Assembly (NCBI RefSeq): GCF_023343835.1
Contig: NC_064439.1
Location: forward strand, 28,311,933 to 28,375,932
Reading direction: 5' to 3'
Source of the DNA: Lagopus muta
Taxonomy: Eukaryota; Chordata; Aves; Galliformes; Phasianidae
DNA length: 64,000 bases
The notes beneath the pieces are model-generated. The model saw only the letters and a program-made list of their open reading frames with translations, searched no databases and had not been told where the DNA came from. Both the position numbers and the translations under genes were made by a program. Shown here one piece after another: positions 1 to 61,995 of this stretch. Position 1 is the stretch's first letter; each line of letters opens with the position of its first letter.

Positions 1-3000
1 TAAACGTTTTTGCCTGGAAATGGCAAGCACACTCCCTCAGGTGGTGACACTAAACAAGCAGTATCAGTCACAGGGAACTGATAGGAGAATGGGTGTTACC
101 ACACTCCTGCTGGCCCCATTCCAGCTGGTCTCATGAGGCTCTATCTTCATGTTCGAATGCTTTCATATCTTCAACTGAGAGTGGCTAAAATAGAAGTGAG
201 CTTAAGCAATGTGGTCTTCTCCATCCACCTCTTTCCTGTATCCAGCTGCACCATTGAGAGATTCCATAAGAGACAGAATCAAGTCACAGGTGGTCACACC
301 ACAAATGAAATTGAGTGGAAAAGATGGAGAAGGGAGAATGATCTGAAAGCAGAGCATTTAAAGACTCACGAGGAGCTATGTGTATGTAAAACAGTGCGTA
401 CTGTAGATGGCCTGATTTGGTCCACTTGTGCTTTTAACCAGTCTGAATAGAAAAGATGAAATATGATGCCGTTGTCGTTTTCTGGTGAAAAGCATGTAGC
501 TATGCTACTTGAATTAGAGTTGAATGCAAGAGCCCTTTCTGAGCAGCGGCAGGCTGGGACTTCAGTTCCTGCTCTCCTTCTGCACGCTGTGCAGCTGCTG
601 GAGCTTCAGAGCAAACAAGCAGGGGCTGGCTGGTACCGGCTTCCTGCTGCGCTCCACAGGTGGCACCAGTGGAAATAACCTGTGGCCTGCTTCCTGCCGT
701 GGTGGGGGTGTGGAAATCAGCAGCGTGGGGGATGTACCTGTCAGTGGTTGATTGGTCTTTGCTTAGTGTGGTGCTGGTTTGATGGATTGGCTAGCAGGGC
801 TGGGATACAAGATACTCATTTAATGCAGACTGTTGCTCCCTTTACTGATTGAGAGTGCCAAATATCTTGCTAAAAACAAAAACTTCAAACAAACTGAAGG
901 CATTGAATGGCTGACTCTAGGACATGATGTCAGTTGTCCCAGAGAGAAGCAGAGAGTAGAGGGTACACTCTTCAATAATGCACAACAACATGAGTACCAT
1001 GTGCTTCTGCCAACAGACCACAGGCACGGAGGCCTGTAATGGGCTACTCTTGTTTGCTCTCAGCCTGCTGGTGTGTCTGTGTTCATCAGTTCTCTCATCT
1101 GTAAGCCAAAATGGTGAATATTAGTTGTTTTCATTAGAAGCTTATAGGACAGATATAGCTTTCACTTTTCTTCTGTGATTATCAAATAACCTGCATACAG
1201 TTGGTGGGCTCCACCACCTGTTCTAGCTCCTTACATGTTCTGTTTTAAAATAGACACAAAGATGTCACCCAGGAGCCCAAAATAACTTACAGCTTTAGAT
1301 GAGCTTGGTGTGAACGCTTGGGTGTTGCAAATGCCATCCCTGTGTACATGAGAGGCTGTGCCTATGGCTAGGAGTCACAGCCTCTGGTGTGTTCTGTAAA
1401 ACCTTTCTCTTCTCTTCTTCATATAGAAGATGACAGTCTGTTAAGACTGTGTGTCCAGCTAATGCCTTCACTGTTGTTTTGTTAAACAACAGTTCATTCC
1501 ACTCAGGTTTCTTCTTTCTATCGACCAATAGGATTGTAGCACCTGTACTTCTCTGTGAACTTCCTGGTTGCTGTGTGCGATGTATCAGCATCTGTGCAGG
1601 GAGCAGTCCCACTTTCTGCTCTTACTGGCCGAGCACCGGAAGTAAATAACTAACTTTCTTATTACTAGTATTCAAGTAGAATCATCTGAAAAGCCTAAGA
1701 GCCTAGTGTGCAGCAGGAAGCAACGTCTTGAACTAGGACACCATCCTCCTGATGATTATCACTGTTCTGCCCATGAAACTTAGGTGCTAATGCACTGTAA
1801 CAGTAGCAATTTTCCAACTGTCTCTCTGAAGCGAGCCAGTTGATTTTGAAAGAAAACCAGCCCATTAAGAACATAAATCTCATAATGCAAACAGCTATAC
1901 CTTTTAACTATTTTCTTGCAGGCTGTAAGAATTTCTGAGAGTGTATGTGCATGTGCTAGTGCCCGTGCAGTGAAAATGTTTTGTGTTATGTATGCTGTGG
2001 GGTGCTCAGATAACTCATCAGGACCAATTCCCACATGTGCATACACTTAACAAAGTAAAGGCCTAGCTACTCACAGGCTCTTTAGTTCCTTTTATTCTGG
2101 TAAATAAGAAAAAATGATTTAATTTAATAAATCTTTTCCAAATAACTAGCACGTGCCTTGGAATATACTTAAATTCTAGCTTCTCTATGCAACTCTCTTC
2201 AATCTATCTTAATGTAATCTCTAAAAATCATGACGTTAAAACCAACCTTTATTATTGACCACTTATCAATTCCTTTTTATAAAGGAATCCTACTGTGATG
2301 GTCTGTTAGGGATCTCTGAGCCTAAAAATGTACAGGTAAACCAATGCCGAGTCAGTCTCAAACTGAACAACTCTTGCTTTTCCTGAGAGCATCCACAGGT
2401 CTAATAAAATAATTCACCTTCCTTTACAGCTGGTTTATATAGAAACTTTCCTTGGTGGAACGCTTTGACATTGCATCATGGCAGAAACTGAATTCTGTAA
2501 ATCCACCTAGTCAAGCACATGAAAATGCTACTCCAGTTTTCTTTGTTTCACTGACTTCTACCTGGTGAATCTAGCCTACAATGACCTGCAGGGCTTGTGA
2601 GCAGGAATCTGGCACAGCAGAGCTCTGGGTGTTGGCTCTCTGCTGTGTAGCACCATAGCAATTTGGGAGTGGCTTTGTTTAATTAATAATCAAAATACAC
2701 TTCCTGCTTTTAGTTTTATTAGGGAAGGCTAGAGAGAGCAGCTGTGGCTGGTAGTAGTAATGAGATTTAAGTATTATGAGAGATGAATGACAGATCCATT
2801 TCTGTTCATGAAGGATGATACTATTTTCTATTTGTGTGTATTTATGAAGGATGGTATTGCATTCTGAACATATTGGCCAACCATCCTCATGCAGTTCTCA
2901 GTAGCAAATCTTAGACGACTTCAAGTTAATGCTGGGTTTATTGTGCTAGTTAAACAGTAGCTCGCAGCTGAGTTATCCAAAGAATGTGGCTGGAGTTTTA

Positions 3001-6000
3001 CTAACAAGATTTGAATTGGGTATAACACTAAATGCAAATAAAAGCTCCACCTATTTTAGTTTTGCTGTATCTTTCTTCACATTTTAAGATTGCATTATTC
3101 TCTAGTTCATGCTAAGTCAATGTCAAAATCTCTTATGAAAGACCTAGCAATGCTTCTTTCCTCATTAGCTGTATGCACCAATGCTGATATTTTGAAAACT
3201 CTGTGTGTATTTGGGGGCTCTAATAATAGCACTATTTCTTTGTGTTAGTGAAGGTGCTCCCTCTCTGCCAACACAGCTGCCTGTTCACAGCTTCTGCGTC
3301 ATGCATATCTCCAAATAACAGTGGAATCAGATTTAGGGCACTGCCATTCATTCATTTTTCATTTCATTCAAACTTTTGCAAAGCTGTGGCTTACTCAACC
3401 CTTTGGAATGGACAAACTGACAATCCAGAGAATTGTTTGCTGTCAACAAATGTGTTTACAACTACTAGTATAAAAAAATCTTAATGAAGTTTCCCTACAG
3501 GTTACTTTGCAGTAGAGCTACTCTGAAACACAAGAACTTTACAGTAATATAAATACAATGCTTTGGAAAATGTTATTTGTGCCCAATATTTGAGGTATAG
3601 ATCAAAAGAGGATTTTTGCTTGTCAAGCTGTCATTTTGAAAAAAAAAAAATCTGTTTGGGAATGGAGTTTTTTCAAAATTTCTCACACAAAAGAAATCAA
3701 AATTATCTAGAAAATTATTTGGGTTTACCTTCCCCATATGAAACTGTGTTGCAGAGCATTGCCTGTGCTGTCTCTAACTCCCGGAGATCTGTTAAGATCT
3801 GGAAGCGTGAAGAATGCTTTGAGTGAAGGCAATGAATCATTCACAAAGTCAGTGCTTTACAAAGGATTTAACTAAGTGTAGTCTGGTGGGAGATCAGCTA
3901 GATGAAATAAGTCAGAAGAAGGTGGTGGGCGAAAACATGACACAACAGATGAAATGGTAGAAGTACTTCTTCATAGGAGCCTTCTGCTCTTGGTAGAAAA
4001 TAGGACAACAGAACTTTGCCTAGAGTAAAACTGAATTTTAGTGCTCCTCCAAGTGCAGCAAGGTTTTTGATGATATGAGAGCAAAAGATTTGTATTTTTT
4101 GAACCTTTGATTCGTTCCAACTGGAACTCCAGAACATCAGGGATCCTTGAGGAATTTTGGACTTGGTACTTGGGTCCACAAACCAGTTCTGCAGCTGGTT
4201 CTTACTGTTAGTGAGTGTACACAGGATTGTTTTACCTGTGCTGGGGTTGCCAGAGCAGAGTGATGTTGTATGTGCACACTGCAGTGAATGCTGGGGGTAT
4301 CAGCAGGTCACAACACAGACACGTAAATGTTTGGTAAAGCTTCACCCTTGGAGTTAGAAATCTTAGCTTACACGATATGATACCAGGAGATATTTTAATC
4401 TCTGAAGGGATAAAATCAGCCTGTTTAACATTGAGGGTAGGATGGGAGAGAGCAGAGTTCATACTGTCTTTTTGACAGGTGGAGTGCATCAGATTCTTAA
4501 TTACAGATGGTCTGTTAATTTCATAGCCAGGTGCTTTCATGCCTATCTGCATCATCCATCACTTCTGCTGAGTCATTGGAGAACATACTCTTTATTCTTG
4601 GGTGAGCTTTGTTATATTTCTGGGTACCCCTTCAGGCTACAAGAAGAGTTTCACTTCTGCTAGATGTGGTGTTCAGGTTAAGCCAGCAGAGGTGTGCCTG
4701 TGGGTCATGTGTAAATGCTCAGTTCTGCCCTGGTTCCTGGCCAATTTTTGTAACAGAGCTGAGGCACTAGCCAAGGGTGAGATTTTGTCCTACGCCCTGA
4801 ATGACGTGAGGGTATGACAATATATGTATGATTACAGGTCTTAGTTTTAAGATGATGTGGCAAGGCAAACTTCTTATTACTTACCTCACATATTTTAATT
4901 CCTTACTGTTTTTAATTTTTCCGGATAGTGAAGATAGCAACAACCTTTGAAAAGCTCTTCTTGTGGCATGGAATGTGGATGTGAATTTATGCAAGTGATG
5001 GAGCATCTATGTGTTTATGCATTCTGATACAGGATGTACTGCAGAAGTGTCCTGGAACCACCTTCCTCTTAATTCCTCATTTTAGCTCTCTTGAAAAGTT
5101 AATTGGATAGAGTTTCTCAGTTTAAGCTGTAGCTTGGCTTATGTTTCAGCTTGGTTTAATGACCAGTCTCCTTCCAGTCTATATATATCTAATCAGGAGG
5201 TGACCTAGGTCAAATAATATGTCTGCTGCAAATTTTGTTCTATTTGCAGTGTGTTTTGTTAAATTGATAGCAAATCTGTTTAGAACTCCTGCTGTGCAAG
5301 CCCCTTTCAAAACACTTCTACCAGAAGAGTGATTTTGTGTTAGAATGTGAATGATTGCCTCCCTATTTCTTATCATCTTAATGTTTTCAAATACAGTTTC
5401 AGGGCTAATGTATAGCCTTTCTATGTATCTATGAAGGTTTCTGTTTCTCAAGCCGCTACTAATTTAAGTTTCAGAGAACTTCCTTTTGCATTAAGCAGTT
5501 ATTTATAGGCTTAGATTTAAATAACTTGCTCTAAATTTCAGCACTGTGCGAAATCTCGTTAACTCCTTTTCCTGTTCCCTTTCCCGTTTCTAACCAATGC
5601 AAATCCACGTGTATCATTAACACCTACTCTAAGAGTTTCAAATTACTGCATCTGTCTGTTGGATCTGCTTTTTATTTATTTATTTTTTTGTTTTAACATC
5701 AATCTGAGTGTAATTAGCCATATGAAGACTGAACAGAAAGGTCAGGGGGTCTTGCTGAAGCATGATACAGTAGACCTCCTTCAGTTAATGTTCAGGAATG
5801 GGAAACAAACTTTCTTCATGGCCATTTCAAACATTTGATATCTGTTAACTTCACTGCTGGCTGTAGCAAAATTGAAAAGCATTGCCAACTGTGCTGATTT
5901 CTTTGTGCATAGTGATGTCATTCAACTGGGAGTATTTTCATTGCTATCAACAGCCAACCTTCAGTGCTAGCAACAAGCAGTGCCATCAGTGATGCTACCT

Positions 6001-9000
6001 TGAGGAAGAATGACAAAGCAGAGTGAATACCTGCTCACCTATGGTTAAATCTACTCCAAACAAACAAGCCATGCCGGAGAAGTGGGCTACTGAATAGAAT
6101 GAATCTGCCTGCTAACAAAGCATGTGTTATCTTCAGTGGATGGCGAGGCCTCCTATGGCCATTCATTGTGAAAGGTTCATGACATGGCCAGTGGTGCAAG
6201 GAGATGGCTGCTGTTCTGGCTGGGGGGTGTCTTACAATAGTAAGACCCTAGCTATTTTTCACTTTTCTGCTTCTTTGAGATTAATATGATGCTTTTCTCT
6301 TCCACCTCATAATATTATAGACTTGAAGGGAACACAAGAATCAGCACATCCTGTTAAATAAAATGGCAGGGAATGCTGCTGAATGCTTGGTTGCTCTTAC
6401 TGTATTGTTTGCAGGCTCTCTTGCATTGAAACGATTTAGGAGGGCTTTGGTCCCTCATCTGGTCAAGTCAAGTTCACTGATGAAGGTAAGGCCCTGCTGG
6501 GCACTCAGTGGAATTATTGTGTGTGGAAAATAATCCCTCCTGCACAGATTTACTTTGTGTAAGCTGGCCTGGGTGGAGAGTGCAATTGTCAGTGCATCCC
6601 CTGTGTCTCTGCTTCTGCAGAGGGAGGGGGCTGGGTTTGCCTATCTGCGTGGATTCCCTGAGACAAAGGGAGGATAAGCAGAACCCTGCTGTGCATAGGA
6701 TCATTGATGAAGTTGTGATGATTGCTGACAGCTCTTTCTGTCTCTTCCATACTGGAGCATGCTGGAGGAAGAAACATGTGGTCAGGATGGTGACCCATGA
6801 GCACACATGGTGTGAACTTCCTGCAGTGCAGGAAAGGATGCTGTTATCTCCTGCAAGTCTCACAGAAGCAGCTGCAGCCAGATTTGACATGAGTAACCTT
6901 GAGCAATTGCTCAGTGCAGTCTGCAGTGAATAACTGCATTGTGAAGGGGTTTGGCTTGCTTGTGTTCCCACTGGTGCTTCAAAAAGAAGGCTCTGAAGGT
7001 AAACAAAGATGAATAGAATTAGTAACATAATAGCCAGAGAGTGACAAACGAATGTTCAGCAACAATTGAAACTCTTTACAAGGATCAGAAGTTTACCCTC
7101 AATGATATATGCCCACGTCTTTGCTATTCCATTTGTGCTGCTCACCTTTTCACAGAGAAAAAGAATGTTTTGAGCTAAAAGTTCAGAATCTTACCAAAAA
7201 CCTTACCTAAGATTGAATATATTATTTTCTATGGCTTTTTTTTTTTTTATGATTGTGAAAATTCCTTTGGTTCATTATCAATAAAAAATATTTGTCTCGG
7301 TGATGAAGTAATGTTAAGCTTACTATTGAAAAGAGAACAGCTGGGGAAGTACTTCGTAATTTGCACCCCTGGACAGTATGAACTGCCCATTTAAGCTTCA
7401 TTTACTAGTTAAATTAATCCAAGAGGCCTTATTTGGCTGTGGCCATAGTTCCTTTTGTCTTGGTCCTGAGAAGGTCAGGCACACCCAGCCCGTGTGAGGA
7501 AGTGGCATGGTCTGGTGATGTGGAAGGGAACAAACCCTGAATGCTGTTAATGAAGAGGCCAAATTTCCGAGCTCCTCCCTAGCAAATCTGCATTGTAGCT
7601 TCTTCATTGTTCCTATGCAGTCTCTCAAATTCAAGCTTAAATTTGACATTATTACCTTCTTATTTTTCCTCAAAAATTAGGAAAGGATGCAAAGTTTGAG
7701 TAGTCAGAAAAGGCTACAGTGACCAAGAGGGTTGACATATGAATGCTCTTTATGAAATGAAAGAAGAAATGTATCACTTATTTTTGTTAATATCCAATAC
7801 TTTGCAGTAAATTAACTAAAATAATGGCTTAATAATATGGGCTATGAAATAATTTATCTTGCACACCTCTAGTCTCTCTTGCTGTCTTATCCAAAGAACG
7901 GGCTGAAATGGAAAGTTGAATTTGTGTGATAAATGTGGTTTTGTCAAGACAAAAGGGAAAAAAAAACACATCTGTAGGAAGATAAACTTTTTTTTTTTCA
8001 AATTTAGCTCATGCGTAGCTTGGCTGTTCCCTTTGATTTTATGTAGTACTGTAATTTGTGTTGTAGAGCAATGTGGCAGTGTGAAATACTGTAGGAGTTG
8101 ACGTGGCTGCCTCTACCTCCTCATGGTGTAACTCAGCTTATTGCTTATTAAGGGAAGCAATTATAGCCATCTTTTCTGCTGAGGCAATACAACATTAGCA
8201 GATATATTTGATGCATTTGATTGCTGTCTACTGTCTACTGGTTAGGTCTGCTTTCTTGTCATTGGCTGAAAAATATGCCTGCCTGCTTGATATATTTAAT
8301 CTACAGTGGGCTTTTATACTGGGTTCACTTAAGCTCTTTTAACATGTATGTGAAGAGATCTTAGTAGCCAGACCAATGTCCAGATTGTCTTAATGTCATC
8401 CCAAATGTCTCAGACTTACAGAACAGATTCTTTAAATCTTTAAATCTAGTGGAATCACTAAAACTAGGATGAGGATATTCAGCTTAGGTGGTGATATGCC
8501 CTTTGAACAGAAGGCTGAGATGACTTGTGCTTTCCAGTAAAAGCCTTCAGTAGATGGCAAAAATTCTTTAATTACCTCTTATCTTACACCATTTTGTATC
8601 TAAAAGGAATCTCTAATTCAGAATCTACTCTCACCTAGTTATGACTTCAACTTTGTAAGCTGACATTTTGTATTTAATGAGCTGATCTCTATCTTCTTTT
8701 TTTATTCTGGTTCCATAAAGCCGAACTTATACAGGAGATGAGTTTGAATTTTTTTTTAGTTGTCTTGCTAAGTACATGTAAAACTGTAGATAAATTTTGT
8801 TCCACTGAGAGGTGTATAAAGTGGTAATTAAAACTAACATTTATCAAGAGGATGTGGCCTTTCTATATCAAGATTTTTATCAGTTGAGATTATAACTACT
8901 CCCACAATTTAACTGCAGAAACATATGTAGAATGTGCTCAATGAATGTGCAAGCACAGTTTTATGCTTTATGTTTTATGGGCAGTAAAGTCAGTAATTCA

Positions 9001-9380
9001 GTATACTACCGTCCACTGCAGAAGAGAAAACATTACAAGTATGTGCCTAAATTGATTTGAAAAGTGCCTAAAAAATATTTGATGTGCAGGTATAAGTCCC
9101 TGAGGCACTTTGCTTGCCTGGTCTTTCTATGCTCGCGTACACCCACCTTCAGAAAAATATGTGCACCTCAGTGCATTTGTCCTAATTCAGGCGCTATATA
9201 CAAATAATGTTATGACTTTAGAGTAATAGTATTAATCTAGCAGAAGAAAACTTGTAAGAAATCCTCATGACTTGGATGGTAACTAGCTGCATGCTCAAGA
9301 CCAAAGCTCTTCTCTGAGTCAATCACTGTTCTCCAAACAGAATTTAGCTTCATGTCTGTGATAGGAGTTGATGTGTTCAC
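1..9380. other. Intergenic, no supported gene
   Basis: The stretch is AT-rich unique sequence with short ORFs only. A stop-poor patch at 6474-7028 is discussed as a finding. If AGR2 lies beyond the AGR3 3' side as in mammals, none of its recognisable exons ([16 protein letters not shown] blocks) are visible here. Confidence 0.6.
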
Positions 9381-9433
9381 AGTTGGACTAGATAATCTTA
9401 GAGGCCTTTTATAACCTTAATGATTCTATGATA
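9381..9433 (+). mobile_element. Old CR1 3' terminal fragment
   Basis: About 50 nt match the CR1 3' end: GGACTAGATAATCTTAGAGG followed by a TGATTCTATGAT-like terminus. It is diverged and very short. Confidence 0.7.
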
Positions 9434-10316
9434 TTGTACTGTCTCTTTAGTCCTGTAGCCAGCTGTGAGCTGTAGTGAATACTCTGGCTTTAAACTTAAG
9501 CCTTTCCTTGGAGGCCAACTAGCATTCAGCTATTTGGTAAATTTCTGATAGGTTTGTAATAATCAAGGAATTTTGATAATTGTTTAATCATGTATAAAAT
9601 AAAGCAAGTAATACTGTATAGCAACTACCATATTTTCCTTTCATCTAAGCAGAGCCAATACCATTTACCAGGACAGGCATATTTTACTTATACTGGTATA
9701 TATAGTGTGAGCTGTATAATTCTAAAAAAGGGGAAATGTGTTCATGTAAGTCTAAATGCTGCTGTTGTGGGCATATTCATTTTTTCTAGTGGACAAAAGA
9801 TAAGCACAGTTCCCATGGAGGGCAGCCTTTGTCCAGCATGAGTTTTTAATAAATAATATGACTGCCTACATCAGACAGAGAGAATAAGATTTCATGCAGT
9901 TTCCCATTTTCAGGGCTGTCTTTTCCCAGAATGATGCTTGGGGAACATTTTGATGTCAGAGCCACTTTCCAGTAGAGAAGTAAGAGCATCTCAAAACTGC
10001 ATCAGTTGCTGCACTTCTGATCCCTTGGCAGCATCCCCAAAGCTTGGATCTGGGTTTCTCTGTGTTTGCATCTGTCCTGTTCCCCATCCTTCAGACCAAG
10101 TTTTGCTCTTGTCTGCTAGGACTGTCAGCTCACTGTACTCCCACAGTGATTTGAGTGATCACAAAACACCGAATTTCTTGACCTACCCCTTCTAGTAAGC
10201 TTTCCTAATGGAAAATGCCATTTATTTAGAATGAAAGGATTACAGAGACCATGAATTTGGTATATAAAATAATCAGCTGCAATGGAGGTAACAGTCGCAT
10301 CTGAAAGTTGCCGAGT

Positions 10317-10372
10317 ATATGCGGCTGGAAGGGACCCTCTGGAGACCTAGGTTAACCTTCCCTGATAACCAC
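10317..10372 (-). mobile_element. Possible CR1 3'-end remnant
   Basis: The stretch GGCTGGAAGGGACCCTCTGG followed by AGACCTAGGTTAACC resembles the inverted CR1 3' end (ggttggaagggacctctggagatcat type). It is too short and diverged for a firm call. Confidence 0.4.
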
Positions 10373-11552
10373 TGAATTTGTGATTCAGGTCCTCCACCAC
10401 AAGGACCAGACTCATAATGGTGCCATATCAGCAGCCATTGTCTTCATGCATACCCTTGGGGTGGGCTCCTTCATCACTGTTTTGTTGGTTTGTAAGTCCC
10501 TCGTTTGTCCATCTCATCCAACAAGAACACATGTCCATGAAAATGGTATTAGTATTCAAAATTTATTGTGGTATCAGGAGAAATCTAAAGTGTTATTGTG
10601 TAATATGTTATAAAGAAACTAACTTTTATAAGAGTACACTTTAAGGTGAGCACAAGGGCTATTTTTGGAAGCTCATGATGTCCAAATAGTTTCTGCTGAT
10701 AATATTAAACAGGAGTCTTAAAGAGCAGCAATCATTCTTTTCCCCCATGTAACAGCATGAAAAGCAATCAGTACTTGTACATATGAAATACCCTTGGAGT
10801 ATATGTTTTTAATTTTATGTTTTATTGTTGTGATTAGCCAATGCATTCAGAATTTTTATATATGCAAAGATTAATTTTTCTTTTCTGCTTTAAATTATTC
10901 TTATGGAAGATTTTACCTGTTTTTCAACTTCACTGTTTTAAAATAAGGTCATCAACCTGACGTCTTTTTTGGAAATTTACCGCTATGTTTACAGTGTAGT
11001 TTGAACATTTCTGGGATTTAGCAGCATATAGTCACAGACAAGTTGAATCTACATTACTGTAGTGTCAAAAAATTTACTGGCACTGTCAGCTTTTAATATT
11101 GTTGACCTTGAAACCACAGTGTCTTCTTTAATTATAGCTTTACCTGGAGAAATGGCAGCTACTTTAAGATATCTAGCACTGTGGAATTATCTGTTTACTA
11201 CAAATATTTCTGGAATTTACTCTTTCTCAAGGACATTGTTACTTCTAGGTTTGTTTATGGCTCAGCAGAGCATGTCATGAAATTATATAGCATGGGGAGA
11301 ATTTTCTTTAGCTTTCTTGGTGAGTCATTCTTTCTCCAACAGAAGGACACGTATCCTTTGGTTTGCTTCAGTGTAAGAAGGAAGTGCTTTATGCTCTAAG
11401 GCATTTGTTATAAAATTGAGGTTCCTGTCTTGTTTACCTTAGCACAGTGTCTTTTTCCCCTTAATTACAAGAGTTCAGATGACCACAGTGAGAAAGAAGC
11501 TGTGTGAATTACTTTGAGCTTATTTTCATTCTTATCAACTGGATAAATTGTT

Positions 11553-12505
11553 CAATTGTTCAACATCTTCATCAATGACCTTGATGAGGGGATAATGGCC
11601 ACCCTCAGCAAGTTTGCCGACGATACGAAGTTGGGAGGATTGGCTGACACGCCTGAAGGCTGTGCTGCCATTCAGCAAGACCTGGATAGGCTGGAGAGCT
11701 GGGCAGAAAGAAACCGGATGAGGTTTAACAAAAGTAAGTGTAGAGTCTTGCATCTGGGGAGGAATAATTGCATGCACCAGTACAGGTTGGGGGATGACCT
11801 GCTGGAGGGGAGCTCTGCGGAAAGGGACCTGGGTGTCCTGGTGGACGACAGGTTGGCCATGAGCCAGCAGTGTGCCCTTGTGGCCAAAAAGGCCAATGGC
11901 TTACTGGGGTGCATTAAAAAGAGCGTGGCCAGCAGGTCAAAGGAGGTGATCCTCCCCCTCTACTCTGCCCTGGTAAGACCTCATCTGGAGTACTGCGTCC
12001 AGTTCTGGGCTCCCCAGTACAAAAAAGACAGGGATCTCTTGGAAAGAGTCCAGCGGAGGGCCACGAAGATGGTGAAGGGCCTGGAGCATCTCCCCTATGA
12101 AGAAAGACTGAGTGAACTGGGTCTGTTCAGCCTTGAGAAAAGAAGGCTGAGAGGGGACCTGATCCAGGTCTATAAATATCTAAGGGGTGGGGGGCAGAAT
12201 GGCGAGGCTGGACTCTTTTCAGTGGTGAGTGGAGACAGGACAAGGGGAAACGGCCAGAAACTGGAGCATAGGAAGTTCCGCACAAACATGCGCAAGAACT
12301 TCTTTACAGTGAGGGTGACGGAGCACTGGAACAGGCTGCCCAGGGAGGTGGTGGAGTCTCCTTCTCTGGAGACGTTCAAGACCTGCCTGGATACCTACCT
12401 GTGCTACCTGGTGTAGGGAACCTGCTTTGGCAGGGGGGTTGGAGTCGATGATCTCTGGAGGTCCCTTCCAACCCCTACAATTCTGTGATTCTGTGATTCT
12501 GTGAT
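11553..12505 (+). mobile_element. CR1 LINE, 5'-truncated, 3' end intact
   Basis: The sequence is recognisable CR1 from the reverse-transcriptase FADDTKLGG motif through the ORF2 end and 3' UTR. It terminates in three ATTCTGTG units (12480-12503), the hallmark CR1 3' repeat. The 5' end is truncated near 11553, typical of CR1. Preservation is far better than in the other CR1 pieces here, pointing to a young subfamily. Confidence 0.96.
11556..12416 (+). pseudogene. CR1 ORF2 C-terminal fragment (reverse transcriptase)
   Basis: This is an uninterrupted 286-codon frame encoding the C-terminal half of CR1 ORF2p. It begins in the [11 protein letters not shown] region just before the RT catalytic motif F-A-D-D (about residues 21-24). 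It continues through the [28 protein letters not shown] segment to the [24 protein letters not shown] tail and a TAG. The endonuclease and N-terminal RT are missing, and the frame opens on TTG rather than ATG, so it is a remnant without coding function despite having no frameshift or stop. Confidence 0.9.
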
Positions 12506-15500
12506 AAATGCACCTTCAGTTCTTTGCCCTGCTACATGCCCTTTGTGTGATCTTAACCTGCCTATGTTTTAGTTCCTTGTATACAAAAGCTTGGATAACT
12601 AAACATCCTTGGCTCTTGGAACTCTTTTCAGGGTAAATAACTAAAAGTTCCGTAGGTCTCTTGAATGCTACTCACTTACCACTGGGAACCTTAAGGCATA
12701 CCAGTCTGTGGATAACAGCCATGCCTAATGTTTAAGCTGTCTAGTCCTTTGTCCTTCAGGGATGCCCTGTAGCTGTACTTGGGGTGGTACAAGTTCAGCT
12801 TACCTCCTATGCAGTCAACACATTTGGTCAGGAAAGGCAGCCTTGAGGAATCCGTGAGAGCAATGCTAATGTTAATGTAGTGGATACCATGTAAGTACCT
12901 GGGGTGCTTATTTGCACTGTAGCATTCTGGAAATATATCATGAAAACTACTTATTCAAAATCTTCACTAGACATCAACAATGTTGTTTCTTGACTCTTCA
13001 AAATAAGAAACAACAAAACAGTCTCTAAAGCTTTCCTTCTGTTTAGAGGAATTCTTCCATATCCCATATCTTTAGATGAAGACAGCTAAACAGCCTGACA
13101 TATGTTTTCATTGGAATGAGGTTTTCTATGTATTAATTTGTTTAGTTAGTAAATAAGAAAGGGCATTCTTCCAATGAAGTAAAGATCAGGTTTCCAGATC
13201 TAGTGAAACTGCTGGGCTGATTCTGTGAAGTCATCGAAGTCTGTAAGAGGTTATTCATGTGATGTATGCATTTTTGTCACTTCTCATTAAGGACAAGACT
13301 ATATGAATTAATGAGAACTAAAGTCACTTAGGCCATAATGGAATGGTTATTCCAATTTGGTTAAAGTTACTCCTCAGGAGCATGTATGTGTGAGAATATT
13401 TGATAGTGATGAGGTATACTGTATGTGGAATTGTATTCCAAATGAAGTGGTGGATACCGGTTCCATGATTTGCTTGTAGAAATATTTTAGAACTGTGTGA
13501 AAATCACAGCTCTGGCAGACAGGGCATGCAAAGCAGTAATGAGTGACCCTCAGTATGCATGGAAAATTATCAGAAGATATGATTGATCTTTTAAAAGTAT
13601 TTTTAGTCTCTTTCCTGAAGCAAAAACCAAGTCTAAGCACAGAAAAACAAAATATGGAGGAAAGCTGTCTTGAGCATTATATTCTTGAAAAAATTGTTAC
13701 ATATGACATCTTCTCTCTTTCCTACTGGTCATTTATAGACAAGAGTTGATTTGATGAACAACTATTTAAGAATAATTGGAATTGGAATTACATGGAAATT
13801 TGGAAATGCAGTTCTTGATATGAGTGTTTGAACAGAAGAATCTGAGATGGGAAGTGATGAGCACCCTGAACAGCAAGGAAAAGGTACGAATATTTAAATT
13901 GTTAATTCTGAGATTTAGTCATGGAACAACAAATATTCCTCCGTGTCTCATTTGTGTTAGTGGACTTAGGAATTTCCGTGGAGATTTTGTCTCCTTTTCA
14001 CTCATGCTATGGCACTATAGAAAGCAAGGGAAAAAAGAAATGGAAGCACAGCAATGACTTGGCTGAATGTGTGGAAGACACCTCAGCATTTGGAAATTTC
14101 TCTGTGTCAGACTTTGGCAAGAACACGTATAATACATGAAACAGTCCAAAGTACACTGTCTTTATTTTGCAAGATCACATTTCTTTTGCTGTTTAAGTGC
14201 TGAGGTGTCCTACAGTCTGTCGTCTCCATGGTACATAAAGGTATGGTGGCTTTTCTTTTGTTCTGGTCCACTGCAAATATTTGCACACTGGGAAATGTTT
14301 TAGCTCTGCAGACCAATACATCAGCCATCTGCCTAGAAAAGCCCACGCCTTTCTGCTTTGAGACGGATACATAGAGGGAGGATCCTGTTCTGTAGGCTTC
14401 CAGATTCTTGTGCCTCACCTCTCTGACGTTAAGTCCACGTTTGTTTGACTACGCTTTGTCTGATTACAACAGATAACTCCCAACAGTGAAATAGGTATGA
14501 ATATGTGAGCAGGTGGCAATAGAGTTTGTTTTCCAGAATGTATTGTGGTCGTAGTAAAGGGAGAAGCCAGAAGAATTTTACATAAAACATTTGCTTCCAT
14601 AATGTATGTATGTTACTACTGGGATCCATAGGTGTAGAATACAAGATCTGAATTCTGTAGAGTACGTAATCTACACAGGTAGGCTTTCACAGCATTAGAT
14701 CCTCATATAATAACTGAATGATTCTTTGTAAAAATAACTGCTGCTCTCACACAGAAGTTTCCTGTCTTTTCCTCTCCTTCTTTAGCTCTAAGCTGAACAG
14801 CAGTAGTTAAATAAAGCTGGTTGTTGTAGATCCAGTTGACCAAGAAACAAAAGGAACATTTTTCCAATGAATATGAAGAGATGTAAGCAAAGCATGTGAA
14901 TAAAGATCTGCCCACTATTATTGTGACTGTTGTTGCATGCCAACAGAGAAGGGAATAGCATCTCATGCCACTCACTTGAGAAGAAAAAAGGAGGAAAGAA
15001 TAACGTTGGGTCTGCTGTTGCACAGGCTACAAATATATTATCTTGTTCCTGACCAGAAAGAATTTAATCTGAGGTCTGTGTTTATGTTCCATCAGGAGAA
15101 ATATTACCTAGCAAAGATGAGAGGGCAGAGATATAGTAGCAACTGTCAAATTGAGGATGAATGTTAAGCTAAGCTGTAAACAGAGAAAGTATTGTACAAC
15201 ATCCACAGTGTTTTCTACCTGAATATCTAGCTCCACCAAAAGGACTGGATCTGAATCTTTAAATATCACAAGGATTTAGTCCCATTTCTTGAGGCTACAA
15301 CTGAGAACAGATTTCAGCCTGATACCTATAGGGATCTGAGAAGTGAAAGGAGAGAAATCCCATTTTCATTTAAGCCTGTGATGAAGAATTCTCTAAAAGC
15401 AGCTCAGTTATGATTTCAACTAAATGGTCCCACTGAATCGTGACTGCTGAGTTACTGTGTTGTGTGCCTGTGTATGCTGTGTCTTCCCTCTCCTTAGTAT

Positions 15501-17390
15501 AGTAATGTAATTTGAGTCCAATCAGTGGCCAGCAATCAGCTCAAATTCAGGCCACAGATATGTGCATTTGTTTCTTCTTCAAATGGGAAATGAGTTAAAA
15601 TGCTCATCCACTGTACAATCCCAAAGGAGCCCTCAGCATATTCGTATTCTTTTGCTTTTTTATATGTGATGTTTCCCTTCCTACACTGGAAAGCTAATGG
15701 AGCACAAATGCAGCCTTCCCTTAAATATCCACCTAGAGCCTGGAACCTTCATATTCTGGACCTTAAATAGGTGAAGGAGGCATTGCCTTATAGAATAAAT
15801 AGCTCACATTTTATTTCCTACCCAAGTTAGAACAGGAGTTGTTTCAAGTCAGTGTTTTTCATGACCTCATCCAATAATTTTGAAAGCAAAGAGAGGAAAA
15901 ATCTGCAAAAGAATAAGAACTTTCCGCCTACTTTTTGTTTATATTCTGAATCTACCATACTTCAGTGTTTCAGAAGTTGTTCTGTCCTGTGCTTCTCTCC
16001 AGAGTAAATCTTCTCTTGACCCTATTTTGCGAATGCTGCCACAGCTATCCTGTGTCATCTCTGGCAGCTTGCTCCATCCTTTTCTCCTGAACATCTCTGA
16101 CATGCTTAAGATAGGGAGTGTCCACAAGTCTGGGAAATGTTGTCAAATCTGGAATAGATATGAACATAAATGAGATAAACGCAGAGGGGATGTAATTACT
16201 AGTTTAATTTTGTTTCCAGCATTTTCCCTTGATTATCAAGAAAATATACTGCTAAGACAAATATATATTTTTTCTTTTATTATTTGTTCCACAGGTCATT
16301 TATCACCCTCTGTTGGAGTATACATCCAAATTTCACATAGCTATGAAAACAGGTGCAATATATTTCTTTTATGACACATTAATACTCAGTATTGTAAGTT
16401 ACTATAGTTGTCCTGCAGAGGATTATCCTTCATATTTCATACATGCGTTTAGGTGACATAAGAGGAAATGGCAGGTAACAGAGATAAGTGACACTTGTGC
16501 CTCACACAGAACATCACATTGTTGCTCTTTCTCCAGATGGATGACTTACGACTTTGCTGTAGTGAAGGAGCATATCATAGGCATAGGAAAATATTTCTGC
16601 TGACTCAATCTTGTTACATAAAATAGATGTCTACTCTTCCATATGGTGATCTTGGGAGACTTTGTGTAAAAGAGTTTGTATATGCAGATTCCCTCACCAT
16701 GCTTCCACTATGATGTTTGTATTGGGAGCTACGGAGGGAAGGACCTTTTGAAAGTGCCATTTAAAAGAAAAGGGCTAGGAAAAGCCTACTAATTTTTCCC
16801 GTACCAGACTTTACAAGCATGACTAGCCTCAGGTGTGGAGTTCCAGAATTATCTCCTTCCATCTCTCTTGCGTCACTGCATTTTTATCATGGCAAAACCT
16901 GTAGTTGCTATTTGATGACTATCACCTCACAGAAACCCCATGTTCAGCAAGAAATATGTTCTGTTTTCAGCTATCAAATAATAGATAAATCAGATAATAA
17001 CTAAAGAGTGATACAGAAGAAAGCAAACCCTAGATCTGAGTTCTTTTTCCCTATTAGTTATTCCAAAATCTACAGCAAGAGCCTTCTGTCTGATTTGCCA
17101 GCAATATTCCTTTAATGAGAAATAAGCACATAAAATTGTGTCCTACTAAAGATTTACAAGCTACATGAAATAAAAAATTGGAGGTGAGATGTAGCTAATA
17201 ACTTACATCATTGTATTGTAAATAGACATCAAGTATTGGCTATAGCTCTTGATTGGAAGCTGTAGCTGACAATAAAGCTACTGTTCAATTGATAATGTAC
17301 AGCTCAAAGTTGCTTGCACCTTAAACCATCACTTTCAGTTATTCAGGTAGCTAACTCCACTTCAAAGTGTTTGATAGATTTCTTTGTTTC
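12506..17390. other. Intergenic between CR1 and the AGR3 3' end
   Basis: I see no gene, RNA or recognised repeat. The ORFs are short and unlike known proteins. Confidence 0.6.
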
Positions 17391-17412
17391 CCAAATTGTA
17401 ATAGTAGCCTCC

Positions 17413-17572
17413 TTTATTCCCTCTTCAAATCATACTTTCTCATGAAATCTGGTTTACCTGGTTGGTAAGAGTTCAAAGAGATAGCAGAGAAAGAAGCTAA
17501 ATAAATGCTTTAAAATGTTGGAATTCTTGGCGCAGCTTCACCTTCTAGAGGCTATGAACATTTCACTGTTGC
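17413..17572 (-). promoter_or_regulatory. AGR3: AGR3 3' UTR with candidate poly(A) signal
   Basis: On the minus strand an AATAAA hexamer lies at 17418-17413, about 155 nt after the stop codon, with no earlier hexamer in the UTR. Cleavage would be expected some 10-30 nt further on. An ATTAAA at 17116-17111 is an alternative distal signal. RNA evidence is absent. Confidence 0.5.
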
Positions 17573-17622
17573 TTACAATTCTGTCTGAATGAGGCGTAGT
17601 GCTTTCTTCATGTTCTCTATTA
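17573..17622 (-). CDS. AGR3: AGR3 last coding exon (C-terminus, QTEL, stop)
   Basis: The acceptor is TTTCTTTCAG. The exon completes Leu150 and encodes [15 protein letters not shown] followed by TAA at 17575-17573. Human AGR3 ends QSEL and AGR2 ends KTEL, so QTEL is a plausible variant of the non-canonical KDEL-type signal. The 3' UTR follows at lower coordinates. Confidence 0.95.
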
Positions 17623-20600
17623 CTGAAAGAAAAATAAGTAACTGTAAAATATACTCAATGCATTTTGATTAGTACATTCTTCACATTGAAATTAATGCAG
17701 GATTATGTATTTTAGTGGTTCCTATAGTAAATATTCCAGCATCGATACTGAAGCTGAAGGCAAAAAGTGTTGTGAAAATCAAAACGTTTAACTTAAGGAG
17801 TTGAGTATTGTCGAATCCCTTTTGCTTCAGCAATCGTGATAATCAGATGTGACATGCATATTTGATGTGAGATACTGCATGGGTTTCAGATAGATGGTAC
17901 AGAGTACCAGTTCAACCTGAAAAATCACATTCCTTTTTGAAATACGGGTAACAAGCTTTTTTTTTTTTCCCAGTCCCCTCCCACCTCTGCCTATTAACAT
18001 TGCGTAGTTGGATACCTTTGAGCACAGTGACTCTCACCATTCACCAGCAAACAGCTCAGGTTTTGGTCCTGAAATTTCTCATCCGTGATCTTTCAACTCA
18101 TATCACCTGAGTAGACCCAATAAATCCATTGGGACAATAGATGTGCTTAAGTGTTTGCTAGAACAGGTTAGACACTGTAAATTATTGTTAAGTGCTCGCA
18201 AACATTCTTTATTCATTACTTCGAGATCTTAACTGATTCTCAAACACAGACGATTGGCATGGTGTGCATCGGGCTGCTTACAGTACAAAATGCAGAGTAA
18301 CACAACAAAATAGGCACTTACAGAACGGTATGTCTTGTGGTTCATAAGTGTACAGCCGATTGGAGTATCTTCCTGTGATATCAGCTCTCACCGTGAGAGA
18401 CGGGTCTGAAAAAGAAACTGTGTTAATCGCTGCTTTCCACAACAGCGGAGGGCGATGCCCATAGCACAGCCCTGTTTTTGAGAAGTTCTGATTTTGCCAG
18501 CCACAAAGTGCGAGGCTGTTATGCTCTGTTCCAACCAAATGTTTTTTATGTGGAGAAATCTTAAACAAAAGCTAATGCTCAGTTTTATATTACACGGCTA
18601 TTTTTAAGAGATTGGTTACACGTATGTTTTGTCCATACTTGAAGAAAACCATCCTGTTTTACAAGTCCTGGGGTTACTCTGGGAGAGGCAGTCTGACTGG
18701 ATGCACAAATAACGAGGGTCATGCATAATTAATGTAACATTATCATGTTACCTAGAGACCAGGACTAAGGTCTTGTGATTCTTATTGTTTCCATTACAGG
18801 AGAAAATGGTTGTAAATACTGAACTAGTTCCCCTGCTGGGCTTTCTGTTAACTAATCACCTGTCTTCTTTTACTACCTTGCTCTGATGCCTGTACAGTCA
18901 GTGAAAGGGAACATGAACTGTGGGGCATGATTTACTTGATATATTTCAGAAGTCAACTTTACAATGCAGTAGATCATTGCTTAGATTCTGTTGACTGTTG
19001 ACTTGCTCTGTGGTAAGGTCTGCACTGTAGATGTGTACATTCAGTCTGATATTTGACAGCTCTGTCTAAGCTTTGTTCCTAACTGCACTTGCAAAAGCAC
19101 AGAGAGCTAACAGGGGCTGACAGATGCCCAGATGCTAACAGATATTTAAGCACCTTGCTCCCAAATGCAAATGAGGTACCCTCCAGAACATACCTATAAC
19201 CTGAGGAAGTTTACAGGGGCTGAAGCCTGTGAGAGAATGGGAACTGAACTGAGGTGTGCCAAATTCCATACTATTGCCATGGTAAAGACAAATTCTGAGC
19301 TATTTTCTTTTTGCAAAATAATTTGTCTTGATGTTTCTGGAGAATGACACTGGCATAGATTCAGAGATCACATCTTCAGAAGATTGATAAGTACTGTACA
19401 TACCTATGAACATGATTCGAGGCACATATTGTCCATCAGGTGACAGGTTTTTATCTGTGGTTTCATGCTGGCAGAGAAATTAAAGCTAATTATTAAAATA
19501 TTCCTATAAATTTAGCTGAAGTAGCATCACTTGTGAACAGTCTTATACCAGAGGGCAAAAATACAGACGGGATACATACACACATAAATGCATATATGAG
19601 GGCTGCTCTGAAAGTAATGCTTCCTATTTTATTGTGTTGGTCCATGACATCAAAGATGGATGCTGGTGATGTGGCAGTAGAAGCTAAACCTTCGCACCAG
19701 TGTTCCATTACATTTTGTTGCAACAGATGGCAGTAGAGACAGTCAGACAGAACGGCATCTGTTGAGAAGTGCATGAGAGGCAAAGGTGTGTTCCATGCAG
19801 AAAAAATTACACCTCTTGACATTCATTAACACTTGCTGAACTGTTATGGACAAAAACAGTGGATGTGAGCACAGTGAGGCATCAGGTGGTGTGTTTCAGC
19901 AGTGGCAACAAAAGTATGAAAGACAAGCAATGGTCTGGATAGCCATGCAGATTTTTATGGCTGTGGCATGCAGGCTCTTGTTTATTGCTGGTGAAAATGC
20001 ATAGCTAATGGTGGTGACTACGTTGAGAAATAGTTGTTTTTAGCTGAGAATTTGCTTTATCAAACAGTGTAATTGTACCTTTTGTATTGTTGTAACTTCC
20101 ATGGAAATAAATGGGAGGCATTACTTTAAGAGCCATCTACGTAAATATGTTTAACTGAAATGCCAGATATACTTAGCTAAAATATGAAAAAGTAAGACAA
20201 GAAAACAAAGACCAAAAAGAGCTACCAGACAAACCTCCCCAAACCCTTCTTACCATGAGATTCAGCATAATGAAACTATCTTGGGCCATTTCTTGTATCT
20301 CTTCATTTTCAGCAAAAGCTTTCTTCAGTGCTAGAAAAGACAGGAATATTTTTAAGTCCATTGTAGATGTTGCCTTTCCTTCAGTGTTTAGGCACCGAAG
20401 ACTGGTCCCATCATTCCTGCCTCTGCTCATTTACATTCCTAGGAGACACTTTTGGGATCTGTCATGGCGTTATGGTTTTTGATCTGTGTGTCAGTGCAAC
20501 CTTCTAGCTATGAAAATGGAAGCTCTTTTCTGTCATTTACGAAGCCTGTAGTTTCAGCAGATAATGTCTCAGTTTGACAAAAGTGCATTATTCTCAGAAA

Positions 20601-23556
20601 ATTCAGTTTCAGTTGTCTTGTCCTTATCTCCTTCTCAAGTTACCATTTCAGGAAAGCCAAGCATTGTTAAATATGTTCGATGAGTCAGTAGCAAATATGT
20701 GTCTTTAAACTGACAGGTGTTTAATCAGAGATAGCAGGACAGTAGCACTAAATGTTTTTCATGTTCATTTTTTGAGTAGATTCACAATGACTTTTTTGTA
20801 AATAACAAATCCTTAGCTTTTCAACTACAGTTTCATGCACTTAAGGAATTTTGAGTAAATCCAACAAATATATAAATAGTTGTGTTTTCTTAAAAAGATG
20901 TTTACAAAAATTTAACACTGAAAAAATCAAAATTACCTTGGCAGTATTGACAGTCTTCCAAATGATGAATGACCATCAGTGGCTTGTTACTTTATTAATA
21001 ATAATAAAACATGTAGTTAGTTTATTTGAAAAGAATGAAAATAAGTGATTTTGCTAGTAGGTTGGAAAAGACAAATTGCATTTCATTTCCTGTTAAATCT
21101 CATTGAAACCTAACAGGCATTCTGTGAGGGATGATAGGCATTTCTGTGCAAGAAAAAAGGGAAGCTAGAGAAAGAAATAGAGAAGTGGAGTTCCTGTGTC
21201 TAGATAGCTTTTCTAAAGTAAAAGTCTACAAGAATGGTAGAGTGGTTCTGCTGTGATGGTGTTTTGTTGTTTTTTTTTTTTTTTATTTCATTACAGTATA
21301 TTGAGGGGTGACAATATAATTAATAAAAGTGTCTTTCAAAACTATTTTTTAATCTCTTACCTTTTTTTTGCTTGATAAAGCCCTTCTTCGTAAGTTTGTA
21401 CCCATGTTATTTCATCTCCCCAGCCTACAAATATAATAAAATGATTAATACTTGGCTAGATAAGTAATTCATAAGAAACTACGTTTTTTACCTTGGTCAG
21501 TAGCTGTACACAAATAGATTTTTGTTCAAAGCTTACCAAGCATTGTAGATATATTAATCCTACATCTGCTAATAAATGTATCAGAATATTAAAAAATAAA
21601 CCAGCAAAACAAACAAGCAAAAACAATCAAAATACCTCAGCTGACTGACTACCCAGTGCAAGTCCTTTGATACACTCAATAGAACTCTTTCTGAATACTT
21701 AGTGCTCCCTAAATTGGTGACAAAATTCTTTATATCTTCATATTTTCTCTTCATGTTGTCTGCTCTGTATTTCATTTCGATGCTGGGGGCTTAAAGAGAA
21801 AGCTGGCTCAAAAAAGTGAGAGAGAAAATTTAATACAACAAATGAAATAAAATCAATTTTAACGTGATTGTTCTTAAAAGAGTTTTAAGCCTGACTCCTG
21901 AGTTAAGAACTTCAGTCTCTGGAGTTGCAAGTACTTCAGTTAATTAAATAATTTAGTTAAAGAAAGGCTGTTAGGCAAAAATCTCCATCAAAATAAAATC
22001 CTAATGAGTCTTCAACTTCACTGCTCATCCACTGAACTCAAAAAGCAGATTGTCTTGTTGGTTTCGTGCCTTCAAATCCCAAAGATGCCAGCCCCTGTGA
22101 AGTAGCTCCCCATCTTCTTGTCAGTGGGGCATTTGACTGGGATGCTATAGACCATCCCTTCTTTCAGAAGACTTATTTCATTTTCACATCTGTCTGATTT
22201 TTGATGGGGTTCTAGCTTGTTTGACCAGTGGGTTCCCTGGCTGAAATCAACTGTTGACATAGACAATGGCAGAGAGGAGTCAGTTGGGTTCATTATACAG
22301 CAGGATTAAGTGTTCCCTCTCAATCTGTTATAATTGGAGGTAATGTTCTGAGTGGGAAAAATTAATTCTGATCTAGTCAAGACAGGCAATAGATGCCAGA
22401 CTGGATATAAACTTTCTCCACGGGTACCGCTTGTGGAAAGTGATTTGACACTTCTCTTTGTTTTGTCTAGGGATGAGACAATTTTATATTGTATATACAA
22501 TGGGTTTCATATGGAAAAGCACTTATTTTTGTTTTTGCTATTTTATGAAGCCTTTTGACTTCCCTGTTATTTTTTAGATATATATATATATATAAAATAT
22601 GGAATAATTTCAGACTTCACTAAAACTATACTTCCTACAACTGATCTGTTTCAATGCTGTCTAAACACCCCTCAAGTAACTGGCCTCAGATGGGGCTTTT
22701 GTGAATGCAGGGCTTTGTCAAGGCTTCATGTGGGAGGAACTCAGAGGTGAGCCATGGATGCTTTGTAGGCTTTGCACAAGTTGCAGGGGAGCTCAGGGAA
22801 ACAGCTGGAGATATTCTGAGGTGATTAGGTGTGAAAAGAGAAGGAAGGCTGAGAATATGGGAAGAGCTACTTTTCTATACAATTTCCTTGTTCAGACATA
22901 AAAAAGTTAAAATACAGTCTTCCTCTAACATCCAGGTGGAAAATTATGCACCACTAAGGAAGTGTGAGTGTGACTATCTGATAAGAGGGAAAACAAAAGG
23001 AAATTAAGGACCAGTCAGTAAATAAATAAATATCCCTAATGGTTGAGACTGTTACTCTGTGGATAAAAATGGATCTGTAGAAAAAAATTTCATTTGAGAC
23101 TGAAGTTATGAAATTGTGTTTCAGTAGCTATAAGTTACCATCTCAAGCTGTCTACTGAGAGGTGTGTGAAAAAATATTTTTCACTGAGAGTTCTTCAAGA
23201 GCAGCCAGGTTCCAGAGACTCAATTTGAGTTATTTGATTCTAACAGGTCACTGTGACTGACATAAATTAGAAAGATTATCTGAATCCTTCAGCCATATTC
23301 TTAAGAACAAACTGATGGAATGAAATGAGAGGGAGGAAAAAGATGCACTACTTAGTGTGTGACTAAATGCTGAAGAATCATGCCTCAGTAAGCACATACA
23401 TGCTTTAAATAACATACATGGTAAGATCAGCAGGTAACTACGTAAAATACCTCTTGATAATGTCTGAGGTGCTCTTCTTTCCTTTTTGATTGCCATAGCA
23501 AGGTTGGATGAGACTGCAATTAGCAGGAGAGACAAAGCCAATGTTGAATGGAGCAT
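17573..23556 (-). CDS. AGR3: Anterior gradient protein 3 (AGR3), spliced gene, seven coding exons
   Basis: Coding exons, in transcript order, are 23556-23451, 21424-21361, 20989-20937, 20330-20254, 19467-19404, 18405-18322 and 17622-17573. They sum to 498 nt (165 residues plus stop). All intron ends are GT/AG and every phase joins cleanly. The product has a hydrophobic signal peptide (residues 1-22, ending in A-M-A), a short basic linker, a thioredoxin-like domain with C70-Q-Y-C73, and a C-terminal QTEL resembling an ER-retrieval signal. AGR proteins are ER-lumenal PDI relatives; AGR3 is known from ciliated and secretory epithelia. Orthology to AGR3 rather than AGR2 rests on the AGR3-type leader ([11 protein letters not shown]), lack of the longer AGR2 N-terminal linker, and the NEEIQEMAQ and RLYTYEP segments. 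Human AGR3 is 166 residues. The oddity is the second active-site cysteine, where human AGR3 has serine. Comparison is with human sequences from memory; no alignment was run. Confidence 0.95.
18322..18405 (-). CDS. AGR3: AGR3 coding exon 6 ([19 protein letters not shown])
   Basis: The acceptor is TTTTTCAG and the donor is a consensus GTAAGT (18321-18316). The exon encodes residues 122-149 plus one base of Leu150. It matches the most conserved AGR block, followed by [10 protein letters not shown], which is AGR3-like. Confidence 0.96.
19404..19467 (-). CDS. AGR3: AGR3 coding exon 5 ([18 protein letters not shown])
   Basis: The acceptor is CTCTGCCAG and the donor GTATGT. The exon encodes residues 101-121 plus one base of Asp122. 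The segment holds the cis-proline (YVP) of the thioredoxin-like fold. It ends M-F-I, where human AGR2 and AGR3 have M-F-V. Confidence 0.95.
19595..20143 (+). mobile_element. Deleted mariner element (Galluhop / GGMariner type) in an AGR3 intron
   Basis: The element is bounded by TA dinucleotides and has terminal inverted repeats. The left end reads GGGCTGCTCTGAAAGTAATGC, and the reverse complement of the right end shares GGCTCT-AAAGTAATGC. I recognise both as chicken mariner termini. Inside are decayed N-terminal transposase remnants, joined to the C-terminal [11 protein letters not shown] followed by a stop. A full-length copy is about 1.2-1.3 kb, so most of the catalytic core is deleted and the copy cannot supply transposase. 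It lies antisense to AGR3 between exons 20254-20330 and 19404-19467. Confidence 0.9.
20254..20330 (-). CDS. AGR3: AGR3 coding exon 4 (ALKKAF to NLM)
   Basis: The acceptor is TTTTCTAG and the donor GTAAGA. The exon encodes residues 75-100, including [17 protein letters not shown] and FIMLNLM, a close match to the AGR3 helix after the active site. It ends in phase 0. The intron that follows carries the mariner element at 19595-20143. Confidence 0.95.
20937..20989 (-). CDS. AGR3: AGR3 coding exon 3 (active-site exon, CQYC)
   Basis: The exon encodes SNKPLM, the HHLED stretch and the active-site C-Q-Y-C-Q (C codons at 20952-20950 and 20943-20941). The donor is GTAATT. The acceptor (AG at 20991-20990) follows an A/T-rich stretch without a clear pyrimidine tract. 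I chose it because it alone keeps the reading frame (AG+T gives Ser57) and restores the conserved SNKPLM seen in AGR2. Confidence 0.92.
21361..21424 (-). CDS. AGR3: AGR3 coding exon 2 ([15 protein letters not shown] segment)
   Basis: The acceptor is TTTGTAG (AG at 21426-21425) and the donor GTAAGA (21360-21355). The exon encodes residues 36-56 plus two bases of Ser57, matching the conserved AGR segment with WGD and TYEE. It ends in GCA followed by eight A and a G, a mononucleotide run inside coding sequence directly next to the donor. Confidence 0.95.
21425..23450 (-). other. AGR3: Longest AGR3 intron between coding exons (2,026 nt)
   Basis: This intron separates the signal-peptide exon from the WGDE exon. 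It holds an (AT)n run and no recognised element. Confidence 0.85.
22577..22594 (+). repeat. (AT)n microsatellite in an AGR3 intron
   Basis: About nine AT units within the 2-kb intron between the first two AGR3 coding exons. Confidence 0.85.
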
Positions 23557-29909: not shown

Positions 29910-30181
29910 CATCCAAGCATGGTGCATCTTCAGGCACCTTGGTTTTCTCTTGACCAGTAGCTTCCTCATGCACTGGTTATGTTTGGTTTGGTGACGTGGT
30001 AGTGGAGGAAACATGAGGAAGGGTGCAGCTGAGGTAGGTATCCCTAGGGCTTTGTTGAAGTGACAGGAGGAGGCACAAAGGTCTACAGAAGGTCTCTATA
30101 CCACTCTGCTCCAATCCCTCTTGCCACATGTCTGGCAGCTGCACACTGCTGTGCCCTGACACCATGGGCACAGGAAGCTAG

Positions 30182-30450
30182 CAATAGAATGGGAAAAAAT
30201 GGCTTTAAATTGTACCAGAGGAGGTTCAGGTTGGATATTAGAAAAGAACCCTTTTCTCAGAAAGAGTGGAGCAGTATTGGAATAGTCTGCCAAGGGGAGG
30301 GGTGGAGTCGTCGTCCCTGGAGGCGTTCAAGAACTGTGGAGATGTGGCACTGATGGAGACTGTTAGTGGGCACAGTGGGGATGGGTGGATGGTTGGACAA
30401 GACGATCTTGGTGGTCTTTTCCAGTGTTAATGATTCTAAGATTCTACGAT
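30182..30450 (+). mobile_element. CR1 LINE 3' fragment, older subfamily
   Basis: The homology runs from the GGAATGGCTTCAAG-like and AGGTTTAGGTTGGATATTAG-like blocks, through TGGAGTCGTCGTCCCTGGAG, to GGACAAGACGATCTTGG. It ends with TGATTCTAAGATTCTACGAT. The reading frame is broken; the fragment is 5'-truncated. Confidence 0.88.
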
Positions 30451-56544: not shown

Positions 56545-57460
56545 CTTCTAAACATGAGCCCAGGTAGCCAAGAAGGACATTGGCATCCTGGTTTATATCA
56601 GAAAGTGTTGCCATTAGGACTAGGGAGGTGATTGTCCCACTGTACTCAGCTCCAGCGTGTCCACACCTCAAGTACTGTGCATAGTTTTGGGCTCTTCACT
56701 ACAAGAAAGACATCAAGGCCCTGGAACATGTCCAGAGAAGGGCAACAAAGCTGGTGAAGGATCTGGAGCGCAAGTCTTATGGGGACCATCTGAACTAACT
56801 GGGATTGTTTAGTCTGTGGAGAGGGCTCAGAAGAGAACTTTTCAGCTACCTGAAAGGAGTTTGTGGTGAGGTAGTGGTTGGCCTCTTCTGCGTAACTAGT
56901 GATAGAACTGGAGGGAACGGTCTCAAGTTACTCCAGAGGAGATTCAGGTTGGATGTTAGGAAAAAGTCTGTTCTCCAAAAGAGTGGTCATATGCTGGAAC
57001 AGGCTGCACATGGAGGTGGTTGAGTCACTGTCCCCAGAGGTGCTCAAGAAATGTTTAGCTGTTCATAGAATTATAAAATCATAGAATGGCCAGATTGAAA
57101 AGAGCCTCAAAGATCATCTAGTTTCAAACTCTGTGCCATGGGCAGGGTTGCCAACTACTAGGCTGGGCTGACTAGAGACACATCTAGCCTGGCCTTGAAT
57201 GCCTCCAGGGATGGGGCATCCACAACCTCTCTGGGCAACCTGTTCCAGTGTGTCACAACCCTCAGGGTTAAAAACTTCCTGATATCTAACATAAATCTCC
57301 TCTGCCTCAGATTTAAACCATTCCCCCTTGTCCTATCACTATCAACCCATGTAAACAGTTACTGTAGTAAGAGACTTGGCTTAGTGGGGAAATACTGGTG
57401 ATAGGTGGATAGTTGGGCTGGATGATCTTGGAGAACTTTTCCAATCTTGGTGATTCTGTG
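56545..57460 (+). mobile_element. CR1 LINE 3' portion, interrupted by a nested CR1
   Basis: Plus-strand CR1 ORF2 sequence runs from a CAGGTAGCCAAGAAGG-type block through ACTACAAGAAAGACATCAAGG and TTCAGGTTGGATGTTAGG to TCAAGAAATGTTTAG (57055). It resumes at 57362 (TGTAGTAAGAGACTTGGCTT) and ends GGTGATTCTGTG. The frame carries stops and a deletion near 56830. The interval 57063-57360 is a second, inverted CR1. Confidence 0.9.
57063..57360 (-). mobile_element. Nested CR1 LINE, inverted, 3' end
   Basis: The sequence begins with ATAGAATTATAAAATCATAG (the inverted CR1 3' repeat). It continues with GATCATCTAGTTTCAAACTC, CTGGCCTTGAATGCCTCCAG, CAACCTCTCTGGGCAACCTG and the CCCCCTTGTCCTATCACTAT block, all familiar inverted CR1. 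It sits exactly inside the plus-strand CR1, so it inserted later. Confidence 0.92.
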
Positions 57461-61945: not shown

Positions 61946-61995
61946 AAGGTCTGAGGCTGCTAATGGAAGAAAGGTCTGAGGTTGCTAATGGAAGA
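61946..61995 (+). repeat. 25-bp tandem duplication
   Basis: Two adjacent 25-nt copies (AAGGTCTGAGGCTGCTAATG then GAAGA) differ at one position (C/T in GGCTGC/GGTTGC). Confidence 0.9.

Follow-up and report, generated by a model that had tools for sequence, protein, structure and literature searches.

The AGR3 gene and its surroundings

The window, by which we mean the whole 64 kb stretch of DNA that was analysed, carries on its minus strand a spliced reading frame of seven coding exons, which runs from 23556 to 17573 with no internal stop and encodes a protein of 165 amino acids (Table 1). All six introns are bounded by GT and AG, the N terminus is hydrophobic by eye and is a putative signal peptide, and the C terminus ends in -QTEL. 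The proline of the YVPR in exon 5 is presumably the one expected opposite the active site. The active-site motif itself, C-Q-Y-C, lies in exon 3 exactly where the sequence-only reading had located it, with matching coordinates and protein context. Its codons sit in an AG/GT-flanked exon of 53 nt that is in frame with the six other coding exons, so that a chance reading of the motif is excluded. Cys70 and Cys73, both within the motif, are the only cysteines in the whole protein.

Table 1. Coding exons of the AGR3 gene and position of the active-site codons within the window
Feature	Position	Strand	Remarks
AGR3 coding exon 1 (ATG; hydrophobic N terminus)	23451..23556	-	106 nt, then GT
AGR3 coding exon 2	21361..21424	-	64 nt, AG/GT
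AGR3 coding exon 3 (contains CQYC)	20937..20989	-	53 nt, AG/GT
C-Q-Y-C codons TGT CAA TAC TGC, AGR3 residues 70-73	20941..20952	-	spliced frame; C TGT 20952-20950, Q CAA 20949-20947, Y TAC 20946-20944, C TGC 20943-20941
AGR3 coding exon 4	20254..20330	-	77 nt, AG/GT
AGR3 coding exon 5 (contains YVPR)	19404..19467	-	64 nt, AG/GT
AGR3 coding exon 6	18322..18405	-	84 nt, AG/GT
AGR3 last coding exon (-QTEL, TAA stop)	17573..17622	-	50 nt, AG before

A tblastn search of the 64 kb with the spliced AGR3 protein gave 12 rows, seven of which are the AGR3 exons themselves, and the other five, with E values of 0.35 or worse, were rejected as a second AGR gene. With this AGR3 query no AGR2 exon was found in positions 1-17572 or 23557-64000, a search that takes in only about 17.5 kb downstream of AGR3. 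A published passage on a snake gives the two genes adjoining gene numbers on a single scaffold; here AGR2 may lie outside the window.

The window has a G+C content of 0.387 and a CpG observed/expected ratio of 0.15; Rfam returned no family at gathering score and ARAGORN no tRNA. An open frame at 11547-12416 on the plus strand (289 aa) has a weak match to the reverse-transcriptase family PF00078 (E 6.1e-06, 26.5 bits, below the cut-off of 29.6). We take this frame to resemble a remnant of a CR1-type LINE, which would suit the CR1 elements of a bird or reptile. Two further frames, near 57352 (minus strand) and at 30048-30353 (plus strand), contain words that by eye resemble it, the latter having no Pfam match, and positions 61946-61995 hold a tandem repeat with a 25-base unit (2.0 copies, 96% matches).

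Relationship to AGR3, AGR2 and TXNDC12

A search of the PDB sequences with the 165-residue protein gave nine matches, the best of which is human AGR3 (3PH9; E 1.2e-84, 284.8 bits), while AGR2 chains score no higher than 232.4 bits and the two TXNDC12 chains near 89 bits, the TXNDC12 chain 2k8v at E 2.5e-24. PDB entry 1sen, named 'Thioredoxin-like protein p19', we take to be TXNDC12. By bit score among these PDB sequences AGR3 is thus the closest relative of the window protein, ahead of AGR2 and TXNDC12. Identity with 3PH9 is 125 of 144 aligned residues, and with human AGR2 (9i3u) 99 of 139 aligned columns. The 19 differences from 3PH9 include residue 73, cysteine in the window protein and serine in the human one, as well as residue 22, which in the human construct may stem from cloning. 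Pfam places a single thioredoxin-like domain, Thioredoxin_7, at residues 42-123 (score 94.5 bits, threshold 27), with weaker matches to two further thioredoxin-like families, and at the sequence level a CXXC is present within this domain. Because of these match scores, residue identities and the Pfam domain the gene is identified by its sequence as AGR3, and its earlier naming as such is borne out by the PDB comparison.

Grassme et al. 2016 (PMC4839744), who surveyed AG genes over vertebrates, print as signatures of the AGR3 group an active site Cys-Gln-Tyr-Cys/Ser and a C terminus Q(T/S/K)EL. The window protein agrees with both (CQYC, -QTEL), and on these published signatures it is like the CQYC orthologues of AGR3 (anterior gradient protein 3, PDIA18). 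Human AGR3 (3PH9) differs from it in its CQYS site, the aligned part of the protein having a single cysteine, and in its QSEL terminus; human AGR2 belongs to the same family but has CPHS and KTEL. The human motifs CQYS and CPHS, on which the sequence-only reading had relied, are confirmed by passages in four publications (PMC12384036, PMC3500226, PMC8394676, PMC12781119) and, for CQYS, by 3PH9. With TXNDC12 (ERp18/19, the human 'AGR1') the window protein has in common, as that protein is described in the literature, a thioredoxin fold and a CXXC site, but the XX residues differ and a published tree sets TXNDC12 in a clade apart from AGR2 and AGR3.

The two-cysteine site among AGR3 orthologues

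The second cysteine had been read as a departure from the AGR3 norm that restored a redox pair in this species. The text of Grassme et al. (PMC4839744) argues against both parts of this claim, since CQYC falls within the printed AGR3 signature and the paper sets most AGR3 orthologues outside the single-cysteine rule for AG proteins, a statement taken from this one paper's text. CQYC in AGR3 is, by this account, an already known state, and human CQYS, the reference point from which a restoration had been supposed, is the less usual AGR3 form, so that no 'restoration' in the present species is called for. The same reading had allowed that CXXC might prove to be the known ancestral state of AGR3, of no consequence; of this the paper's text (PMC4839744) supports 'known' and no other part. 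Scans of viral contigs and of genome contigs for stray vertebrate relatives gave 10 and 53 pattern matches respectively, none of them confirmed.

We weighed how else a cysteine might have come to stand at residue 73. It could have been regained in this lineage, shifting the redox chemistry away from the AGR3 norm, and the serine of human AGR3 at the matching position (3PH9) speaks for this; yet with CQYC printed as an AGR3 signature and most orthologues not single-cysteine (PMC4839744) we regard this as very improbable. We give least credence of all to the TGC being a base-calling or assembly error from a serine codon, against which stand the intactness of the rest of the AGR3 gene and the fact that a cysteine at 73 is a published normal AGR3 state (PMC4839744), which gives no cause to suspect the sequence. 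The locus is in our judgement very probably an ordinary, intact AGR3 gene of a tetrapod, most likely a bird or reptile, with the CQYC site that most AGR3 orthologues carry according to the published survey.

Redox chemistry and the history of the second cysteine

With Cys70 and Cys73 at the attacking and resolving places of a thioredoxin-like domain, a CQYC AGR3 would be expected to act as a dithiol oxidoreductase or isomerase in the ER, and PDI-type dithiol chemistry there is a reasonable inference from the sequence. The putative signal peptide would carry the protein into the ER, where QTEL would retain or retrieve it. Cys70 would attack client disulfides and Cys73 would resolve the resulting mixed disulfide with the client, in a reversible oxidoreductase/isomerase cycle. 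Orthologues with CQYS, the human one among them, would by contrast keep their clients longer in mixed disulfides. Client release by CXXS PDIs is described as relying on a further cysteine (PMC12384036, in the passage concerned); the window protein has no cysteine other than 70 and 73, so Cys73 is the sole internal candidate for the resolving role. What survives of the earlier claim of changed redox chemistry is limited to its premise, that two cysteines plausibly give dithiol chemistry; a change from the AGR3 norm finds no support in the text of the survey (PMC4839744).

A less probable reading is that the second cysteine is catalytically unused. AGR3 would then act chiefly as a chaperone, or by forming mixed disulfides via Cys70, and cysteine or serine at 73 would be nearly neutral within the group. 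That both residues are allowed in the signature of one orthologue group (PMC4839744) and that the surroundings of the motif otherwise match human AGR3 (3PH9) would fit such neutrality, but the retention of two cysteines in most orthologues, as that survey's text has it, suggests some constraint.

The direction of change within the family depends on its neighbours. The AGR1 and AGR2 groups are given as CXXS, except for salamander AG4 proteins with a divergent signature (PMC4839744), and one text describes fish Agr2 as the ancestor shared by Agr2 and Agr3 (PMC4309956). TXNDC12 is CXXC, although the passages we cite disagree on its motif and tail, giving CGAC/KTEL (PMC12384036), CGHC/EDEL (PMC8394676) and CGAC/EDEL (PMC12781119). 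This human 'AGR1' is, on the published descriptions, a different thing from the AGR1 group of Grassme et al., which comprises fish, turtle, bird and amphibian proteins with the signature Cys-Pro-His/Tyr-Ser (PMC4839744). The accounts of Ag1 (AGR1) are likewise at odds, one reporting its loss in reptiles, birds and mammals (PMC4309956) and the other its presence in turtles and some birds (PMC4839744). By a hand count, losing the cysteine independently in AGR1 and in AGR2 takes as many steps as regaining it in AGR3. That the AGR3 group as a whole regained its resolving cysteine from a CXXS ancestor, some lineages including the human one losing it again, is a scenario we entertain only tentatively; if true, AGR3 would have turned from a holdase into a dithiol enzyme and then into a holdase again.

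The CQYC of this AGR3 in itself carries little weight as a discovery. The occurrence of cysteine and serine at the resolving position within one orthologue group offers a natural comparison of holdase with dithiol chemistry. Human AGR3, with its CQYS, may be atypical, and conclusions on a 'single-cysteine AGR3' drawn from the human protein may not extend to other tetrapods.
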